Shown piece by piece: positions 20,341 through 21,723 of a DNA stretch of 33,777 bases (positions within the stretch are counted from its first letter, which is position 1; each line of letters begins with the position of its first letter). Made by a program: the position numbers and the translations under genes. The notes below the pieces were generated by a model that saw only the letters and a program-made list of their open reading frames with translations, was not told where the DNA came from and searched no databases. Source of the stretch: a virus. Location: the IMG/VR virus record IMGVR_UViG_3300033571_008295, positions 1-33,777 of that record; one strand, written 5' to 3'.

Positions 20341-20800
20341 TTAGCTGTTTTTATCAACCGAAACCTTGCGGGATGCGTTCAACTTGTCCGCAAACCCGCT
20401 CATGGCCTCGGATATTTTGCGCCTGCGCTCATCATCAAGGGCATTTTCGGGGAAATAGGGCGGTGGGCAGCCATTATCCTGCGCCTCAATTAACTGTCCG
20501 GCATAGACCCGCGACAATTCCCTGATGGTTTCTGTTTCAAAGGATGTCAGACGCATTTGACGATTGAATTGCCATGCCATCAAGTCCGTCTCATCAATCG
20601 CAACAGGCGATGACATAGGCATGGGCTTAACAGGCCCAAGGTCAAACAGAATAGACAGCAAATGACCCCCGGCGCTAATTGGTGGCAATGGGCCGCCAAC
20701 TGTCTCGCGCCGAGGTTTCTTTGCCTTTTCAGGGATTGTATTAAGCCAAGCGGTCTGCCTGACGTATAGCTTAAGCTGCGCTATCGTCTCCGCGAAAAAA
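20341..20800 (-). CDS. Downstream tail-assembly chaperone part (gpT-like), reached by frameshift
   Basis: An open frame with no credible own start that overlaps the end of the upstream chaperone gene. Shifting +1 (or -2) at the T6 run (20795-20800) joins 129 residues of the upstream protein to 150 residues read in this frame (AETIAQLKLYVRQTAWLN...), giving a fusion of about 279 residues. This is the gpG/gpGT arrangement of siphophages, conserved between the major tail protein and tape measure genes. The part ends just before the tape measure start. Contains a helical FNRQMRLTSFETETIRELSR and a basic end. No independent ribosome site is visible. Confidence 0.7.
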
Positions 20801-21181
20801 GTTAGCACGATTGCTAACAAATTCCTGCGCTTGGTCTTTAATCCATGCCCATTCCGAATAGACATTCTTGATGTTTTCGGGGGTCGGCTTGAGTTCCTTG
20901 CCATCCAGCTTGAAGCCCGTCCAAGAGATTGTCAGCTTGGTCAGTTCATCAATGACATCTGAATTCAGCTTCTCTGCGTCCAGTTCCGCAGCCTTTTTGC
21001 CCTTAGCCATGCGGTTAAGGATGGCCTGCTGCTTATTAAGCTGCATCTTGCGGTAAACGGCGCTGTCATGCCCCAAAAGCATGATGGTCATGCCATCAAT
21101 GGGTTCTTCTGTTTCGGGGTGCAGAATTTGAAGGGTCGCGCCTTCATCAGCCTTGACAGGCTTAAGGTCATTCAAGTCCAT
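20771..21181 (-). CDS. Tail-assembly chaperone (gpG-like), 136 aa
   Basis: AGAAGGA precedes the ATG by about 8 bases. Placed between the major tail protein and the tape measure gene, where siphophages encode the short chaperone form. The N-terminus (MDLNDLKPVKADEGATLQIL, EEPIDGMTIMLLGHDSAVYR) is a beta domain, followed by helices (KMQLNKQQAILNRMAKGKKA). The C-terminal part (TISWTGFKLDGKELKPTPEN, SEWAWIKDQAQEFV) is typical of small tail chaperones with an ISWTGF-like core. Only seven codons separate the slip site from its stop. It would coat the tape measure protein during tail assembly. Confidence 0.85.
   Translation of the reverse strand: MDLNDLKPVKADEGATLQILHPETEEPIDGMTIMLLGHDSAVYRKMQLNKQQAILNRMAKGKKAAELDAEKLNSDVIDELTKLTISWTGFKLDGKELKPTPENIKNVYSEWAWIKDQAQEFVSNRANFFRGDDSAA
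20795..20818 (-). promoter_or_regulatory. Programmed frameshift site: hairpin plus T6 slip run
   Basis: On the coding strand a perfect 6-bp hairpin GTTAGC-AATCGT-GCTAAC (20818-20801) is followed at once by TTTTTT (20800-20795) and then CGC. In the gpG frame this reads AAC TTT TTT CGC. A +1 slip of the phenylalanine tRNA from TTT to TTC, or a -2 slip on TTT, enters the long downstream frame. The hairpin is upstream, not downstream, of the run, so transcriptional slippage on the T6 is another possible mechanism. Confidence 0.6.
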
Positions 21182-21199
21182 AGAAACTATCCTTCTATC

Positions 21200-21254
21200 C
21201 TATCCGGCAGTTGGTCTTGGGTGGACGGGCCGGATAGTGAACCGCCCACCCAAG
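21200..21254 (-). promoter_or_regulatory. Predicted H-type RNA pseudoknot upstream of the tail chaperone gene
   Basis: On the leftward RNA, a 13-bp stem (CTTGGGTGGGCGG, 21254-21242, with CCGTCCACCCAAG, 21228-21216) has one G-U wobble. Its loop contains CTATCCGGC (21237-21229), which pairs perfectly over 9 bp with GCCGGATAG (21208-21200) downstream. Connecting loops are 4, 0 and 7 bases. The wobble pair is allowed only on the transcribed strand. The element begins 10 bases after the major tail protein stop and ends 18 bases before the chaperone ATG, touching its ribosome site. Likely post-transcriptional control. Confidence 0.6.
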
Positions 21255-21264
21255 CTGGTTAGCC

Positions 21265-21723
21265 TTACGCGCCGACTTTAACAATCGAATTGTCAATTTC
21301 CAGCGTCACTTCGGCCATCGTGATAGCATCAGCGTTGCCGACATTGACTTTGTAAGACATGACTTGTGCGGTGAAATACTGCGTTTCGCCATTGACCAGA
21401 ACCACCTTCACCGAAACCTGTGCATCGGTGCCAGCGGCAGCTTCAGCGGCATCCTGCAAGACAGTCTGACCCGTGTCGTCATCAGACACAGCCATTGTCA
21501 GGGCAACCGAGCCATAGTTCAGCGAACCACGGCGCTTGGCAACAATGCCAGTTTTCAGCGGCGTGTGCGTGGCAAGGGCGGCTTCTGCACCAAAAGAGGG
21601 CAGTTCGGCCAATTCGCCGCAATCAGACCAAGTGAGGGCAGAAAAGCCAGAAGAGTTGTAGGTAGCGGGGGCGTTGGCCGAAACCGAAACAACTGTGCCA
21701 ACCGAGGAAACAACGTCAGACAT
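21265..21723 (-). CDS. Major tail (tube) protein, 152 aa
   Basis: Beta-rich protein without membrane segments: SSVGTVVSVSANAPATYNSS, FSALTWSDCGELAELPSFG, TGIVAKRRGSLNYGSVALTM, then AVSDDDTGQTVLQDAAEAAA and a C-terminal AITMAEVTLEIDNSIV. The pattern and size fit the tail tube proteins of siphophages, and gene order (neck genes before, chaperones and tape measure after) agrees. CAGGAG precedes the ATG and is embedded next to a 14-bp palindrome. It forms the hexameric rings of the tail tube and should be among the most abundant virion proteins. Confidence 0.85.
   Translation of the reverse strand: MSDVVSSVGTVVSVSANAPATYNSSGFSALTWSDCGELAELPSFGAEAALATHTPLKTGIVAKRRGSLNYGSVALTMAVSDDDTGQTVLQDAAEAAAGTDAQVSVKVVLVNGETQYFTAQVMSYKVNVGNADAITMAEVTLEIDNSIVKVGA

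Follow-up and report, generated by a model that had tools for sequence, protein, structure and literature searches.

A hairpin loop with at least two downstream complements, the last at the ribosome-binding site, ahead of a phage tail assembly chaperone gene

What does the RNA between the major tail protein and tail assembly chaperone genes of a phage do? The window analysed here is a viral DNA of 33,777 nucleotides (IMG/VR record IMGVR_UViG_3300033571_008295); its features are given below in window coordinates, and all lie on the minus strand. The gap is bounded upstream by a major tail protein gene (21265-21723, 152 aa; phrog_158, E 2.5e-14) and downstream by a tail assembly chaperone gene (20771-21181, 136 aa; phrog_313, E 5.1e-13), which is the gene proposed to be controlled; its ATG is at 21181-21179 and its Shine-Dalgarno site, AGAAGGA, at 21190-21196. 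To our knowledge, the products of tail-chaperone genes are usually treated only as cases of frameshifting. Comparison of sequences makes it likely, in our judgement, that the gap is a cis-acting RNA tuning translation of the chaperone, through a loop that can either mask the ribosome site or pair with decoys.

The initial annotation had placed at 21200-21254 a pseudoknot with a 13-bp stem containing one G-U pair, a 9-bp second stem and connecting loops of 4, 0 and 7 bases, and re-reading of the minus strand reproduced it exactly. Stem 1 joins the 5′ arm CUUGGGUGGGCGG (21254-21242) to the 3′ arm CCGUCCACCCAAG (21228-21216) in 13 pairs, the sole G-U being 21245 with 21225. The hairpin loop is UUCACUAUCCGGC (21229-21241), of which the part CUAUCCGGC (21237-21229) forms the 9 pairs of stem 2 with a proximal target, the proposed decoy GCCGGAUAG (21208-21200; stacking energy -19.3 kcal/mol). 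The connecting loops are 21241-21238, none, and ACCAACU (21215-21209). The element starts 10 bases past the tail-protein stop codon (21267-21265) and AGAAGGA begins three bases after its 3′ arm, also as first described. The arrangement, a hairpin loop paired to single-stranded RNA farther 3′ across connecting loops that are sterically possible, is that of an H-type pseudoknot, and it was found again in relatives whose gaps do not align.

Scored by summed stacking energies, with loop costs ignored, the pseudoknot reaches -48.3 kcal/mol and ranks first among 4494 segments from both strands of the window, the second-best site elsewhere in it scoring -40.0 kcal/mol; when the gap was shuffled 100 times with dinucleotides preserved, no shuffle matched this strength. 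The plain fold of the gap includes stem 1 (z about -2.4). As an intrinsic terminator the stem was rejected: it is followed by ACCAACTG, without a T run, and no terminator was called there.

Relatives of the tail protein were found in 80 viral contigs (77-95% identity), here called freshwater. Their gaps fall into several groups with letters that cannot be aligned between groups, and every gap type examined holds a hairpin whose loop is complementary to a downstream segment. The branched gap type of loci L008 and L027 was borderline against shuffles in the automatic pseudoknot search, and in gaps of the L085, L157 and L177 type the finder chose other pairings; for these branched forms the loops were assigned manually. 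Among 12 distinct single-stem freshwater hairpins, stem 1 pairing is kept in 165 of 165 cells despite rewritten letters, and 11 of the 14 stem pairs are compensatory, with both sides changed; 0 of 2000 shuffles pair as well. The paired cells of these stems include 18 G-U and no A-C.

The loop has a second partner. Its part ACUAUCC (21238-21232) is complementary in 7 pairs to GGAUAGU (21192-21186; -12.4 kcal/mol) at the chaperone ribosome-binding site, a distal target that covers the Shine-Dalgarno core and the spacer. The pseudoknot as first read therefore stands as to its fold, to which covariation has been added, but not as to its single loop partner, and since the loop also matches the ribosome site, at least two states probably compete, a fixed H-type pseudoknot being just one of them. 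Equivalent loop/site pairs are AGCAUCC/GGAUGCU (L184 and L186), CAUCCGA/UCGGAUG (L002), UCCAUCC/GGAUGGA (L032) and UGACCC/GGGUUA (L050). Nearly all phage relatives have at least two targets, the final one on the ribosome-binding site. At loci L085 and L369 the loop makes just 3 pairs with the ribosome site.

Loops and regions, assigned manually once the sequences had been inspected, were compared with loops swapped among 13 non-redundant freshwater leaders, by permutation tests that ignore kinship, so that related sequences inflate the significance. A leader's own loop scored -12.1 against the ribosome site where swapped loops scored -8.6, and -13.5 against the proximal site where swapped loops scored -9.4 (p about 5e-5 in each case). 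At least two sites were present in 96% of freshwater leaders (5% of shuffles) and in 100% of the marine leaders described below (50% of shuffles). Swaps and shuffles alike thus indicate a complementarity of the structured element that is specific to its gene's own ribosome site. The 50 bases upstream of the hairpin matched loops no better than shuffles did in any of the three sets (freshwater, marine and the int-alpA set below), and the coding starts of the freshwater and int-alpA sets showed no enrichment of loop matches.

The distal target may itself be the loop of a candidate small hairpin, AUAGAA-GGAUAGU-UUCUAU (21180-21198), which appears in the plain fold with an energy of -8.4 (p 0.04 against shuffled flanks). 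Its arms co-change in near relatives (UUAGAA/UUCUAA, UUGAAA/UUUCAA). We rejected this hairpin as a universal part of the design, none being seen in the marine family or in the L002 group.

The marine family comprises Roseobacter phage CRP-6 and its relatives. The CRP-6 chaperone is 34% identical to that of the window and belongs to the same chaperone family; the gene upstream of it, annotated as a tail structural protein, has 900 bases, compared with 459 in the window, and the gap between them carries a hairpin of the same kind. From 80 relatives fetched, 15 distinct stems were analysed: 97.8% of their cells are paired, compensatory changes affect 9 of 13 pairs (2.6 in shuffles), and the cells include 43 G-U and no A-C. 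With 61 G-U and no A-C over the freshwater and marine stems together, the transcribed strand is the selected strand; selection at the RNA level, which the initial annotation had proposed from a single wobble pair, is thereby borne out in both families along with the covariation of stem 1.

The marine loop, UGUCGGGU, is nearly invariant, and its complement recurs two to four times between hairpin and gene, for example as ACCCGAUA or CCUGACA. The last of these targets, ACUCGACAUG in most members, extends into the start codon, 3′ of the Shine-Dalgarno site. Loops of other marine members fitted equally well in the swap test because the loop barely varies, and for the same reason covariation is visible in the marine stem only. 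When the loop motif was searched in viral contigs, 120 occurrences were fetched, of which 47 were in stems of at least 8 pairs; 46 of the 47 lay directly 5′ of the chaperone gene, and the remaining one was at a contig end. The marine loop is G-rich whereas the freshwater loop is C-rich, with targets likewise opposite in base bias, so that what is conserved is the complementarity and its position. Mimicry of the anti-Shine-Dalgarno sequence was rejected as a general principle, since the marine loop is G-rich.

Two further features were noticed in the marine leaders. A short perfect palindrome stands just 5′ of the stem, for example CCTCTAGCTAGAGG, CCCTCGCGAGGG and CCCTACGTAGGG in L286, L282 and L309, its letters differing among members and its palindromy being kept even over the central four bases. 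The first 50 bases of the chaperone gene match the loop at -13.5 (-10.6 in shuffles), and may hold another target.

Paired substitutions across related gaps, which the pseudoknot would predict, are therefore present in stem 1, and also between the freshwater loop and its downstream targets. The opposite case, a relative with the same gene order and no such pairing, was encountered in a single distant prophage, Sandarakinorhabdus L163, the sole one read: it has both genes (tail protein 43% identical) with a 27-base gap between them in which no comparable fold was found. In the gaps of phages Effie and 438212 there was no convincing matching pseudoknot; for CGphi29 the part read was only the 13-base gap following the tail-protein match. 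A nucleotide search with the region against named phages gave no match. The gap of Bacteriophage sp. 438212 (L182, 1436-1500) has its Shine-Dalgarno sequence AAAGGA inside an arm of a local hairpin, GTCCTTT TCA AAGGAC, a different way of hiding the chaperone's ribosome site.

Comparison of sequences thus shows a hairpin, a transcribed strand under selection, and a loop with specific complementarity to at least two sites, the last of them over the initiation region; covariation between loop and targets and complementarity to the ribosome site point to a role in chaperone translation, as the initial annotation had suggested. For the other roles put forward there, a stalling of RNase or polymerase and the binding of a phage protein, the sequence offers no favouring evidence. 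From these we infer repression by pairing at the ribosome site, relief by decoys, and chaperone dosage as the purpose. The stable hairpin would present a loop able to pair with the chaperone ribosome-binding site, blocking initiation; with the loop paired instead to decoy copies between hairpin and ribosome site, initiation would be open. Because the last target lies across the initiation region, a loop paired to it should keep the 30S subunit out, and proximal pairing should free the site. The competing pairings would set the amount of chaperone, or let a factor switch it, on an mRNA probably common to chaperone and tail tube protein. In the window, proximal pairing at -19.3 outweighs ribosome-site pairing at -12.4, so that masking may be minor.

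The proximal pairing is the stronger in most freshwater leaders as well as in the window, and this favours an alternative that we nevertheless think unlikely: that it alone is functional, as a static structure by the ribosome site that damps or helps initiation. A pseudoknot aids initiation in repZ of IncI-type plasmids. The ribosome-site match would then follow from the likeness of the proximal target to a Shine-Dalgarno site; but that match co-varies with the loop outside the GGA core, and marine targets are unlike a Shine-Dalgarno site, the last one lying 3′ of it and mostly running into the start codon.

Competition between masking and decoy pairing gains a wider setting from the orphan Rfam family int-alpA (RF02996). 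The Rfam search of the window found no family; RF02996 gave no match at its gathering cut-off (35.8 bits) and, in 20900-21500, none up to E 5. By Rfam's model the window's element is not a member of int-alpA. In this same gap, however, relatives L008 and L027 score 50.6 and 50.1 bits against RF02996, and L085, at 34.2 bits, falls just below the cut-off. An int-alpA element has an outer stem enclosing two hairpins, a branched form that the model alignment places in L008 and L085, whereas the stem in the window is single and uninterrupted, with one loop. The family presumably sits, judging by its name, between integrase and alpA genes, unlike the window's element between tail genes, and Rfam classes it as an sRNA gene rather than as cis-acting control. 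It resembles the window in that its loop has complements at a proximal site and, mostly, at the next gene's ribosome site.

This likeness was followed in bacterial genomes from the same phylum as G003, the Sphingobium genome that carries locus L173; of 398 sampled, 51 hold an int-alpA match. We read 29 elements, one in G003 and the rest from the 398-genome sample, with loops curated by eye before the tests and the frames 3′ of them taken as open frames only. In the second hairpin the loop, often ACCUUCA, is complementary to the proximal site at the end of the Rfam model and, in most of the 29, to the ribosome site (UGAAGG) of the next open frame. Over 25 distinct loops, the own loop scored -11.0 against the ribosome site and swapped loops -8.6 (p about 5e-5); at least two sites were present in 66% of elements and 4% of shuffles. 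The ribosome site is usually within the loop of a small hairpin of its own, whose arms vary widely (UCGCC/GGCGA, CACGC/GCGUG, UUGCAU/AUGCAA) and whose energy is -8.1, against -4.6 with shuffled flanks. The ribosome-site hairpin of the window's group likewise makes loop-to-loop contact possible.

We suggest tentatively, with slightly more doubt than confidence, that the freshwater and marine tail-chaperone leaders and int-alpA follow one design, a masking loop set against one to three decoys whose number and strength set translation, with loop-to-loop contact probable in int-alpA and the window's group; this would be a way of setting dosage that was either retained or invented anew while the letters became unrelated. 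Locus L369 (genome G022, contig 33) has three int-alpA matches on a single strand in a stretch of about 2.5 kb, with about 700 bases separating two of them, and several other int-alpA loci are near a tRNA gene, as with integrated elements.

Phage and host proteins offer other ways to act on such a structure. Published accounts describe gp32 of T4-type phages binding the gene 32 operator pseudoknot, about 67 bases upstream, and spreading over the ribosome site (PMC3014915), pseudoknots involving the ribosome site that control initiation in Escherichia coli rpsO (S15) and the alpha operon (S4), and a long-range mRNA pseudoknot in E. coli rpmI-rplT that controls translation by competing with the ribosome (PMC10931766). 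The gene 32 operator is, like the window's element, a phage mRNA pseudoknot upstream of the controlled gene, but the window's loop is itself complementary to the ribosome site, and decoy copies accompany it. The rpsO and alpha-operon operators depend on a ribosomal protein that acts as repressor and traps the 30S subunit, and the rpmI-rplT pseudoknot is bound by L20, mimics 23S rRNA and lacks a series of decoys. We know of no repeated decoy targets in the rpsO and alpha-operon operators, and of no system in which a loop masking the ribosome site occurs together with decoy copies.

On these precedents of pseudoknot operators near ribosome sites, and given that branched int-alpA has junction letters, CUAG and CGAAAAG, that look invariant and might be contacted, the structure may be one that a phage or host protein binds to repress chaperone translation. 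We regard such an operator as a little less probable again than the static structure. Hardly any letters are common to the single-stem members, or to these and the marine family or the branched forms, which is unusual for a site recognised by one protein, though the pairing switch might yet respond to a protein.

The very stable GC-rich stem right past the tail-protein stop codon would also suit a role in mRNA processing or stability, protecting the 3′ end of an abundant tail-protein message or marking a cleavage site. We consider this improbable: it does not require loop complementarity to a second site at the initiation region, the stem lacks a T run and a terminator call, and int-alpA loci show a similar design ahead of other genes. 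Least probable of all is that the hairpin is excised as a trans-acting antisense RNA, as Rfam's filing of int-alpA as an sRNA gene might suggest and as in satellite phage P4, where the CI RNA pairs with two sites, seqA and seqC, on the transcript that it comes from (PMC4825925), for here the targets are in cis beside the hairpin and co-vary with it, there is no upstream target as in P4, and the phage elements lie within the tail gene block. The CI RNA is a processed antisense RNA acting by transcription termination, with targets on either side of its gene, whereas both targets of the window's element are downstream.

In the titles, abstracts and excerpts covered, the founding description of int-alpA aside, of the literature on int-alpA and on pseudoknots with tail chaperone, major tail protein or Roseobacter phage, no description of the element was found. 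If competition between a masking loop and decoys is indeed at work, int-alpA, filed as an sRNA family, would gain a function and a testable mechanism, and cis RNA control would operate inside phage tail operons; the decoy principle, if real, would be a simple tuning of translation by the copy number of a short target.

A frameshift-stimulating pseudoknot was also considered and rejected because the element sits ahead of the chaperone start, with the candidate slippery run about 400 bases downstream of it. That run is TTTTTTC (20800-20794), near the end of the chaperone frame, and a second open frame of 187 aa (20904-20341) overlaps the chaperone gene in the +1 (or -2) frame; the overlap resembles the usual tail-chaperone frameshift arrangement, yet the frame is not -1. 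Ahead of the major tail protein gene, a terminator-like hairpin (21781-21757) is followed by a promoter-like pair (21752-21725), both consensus matches only.
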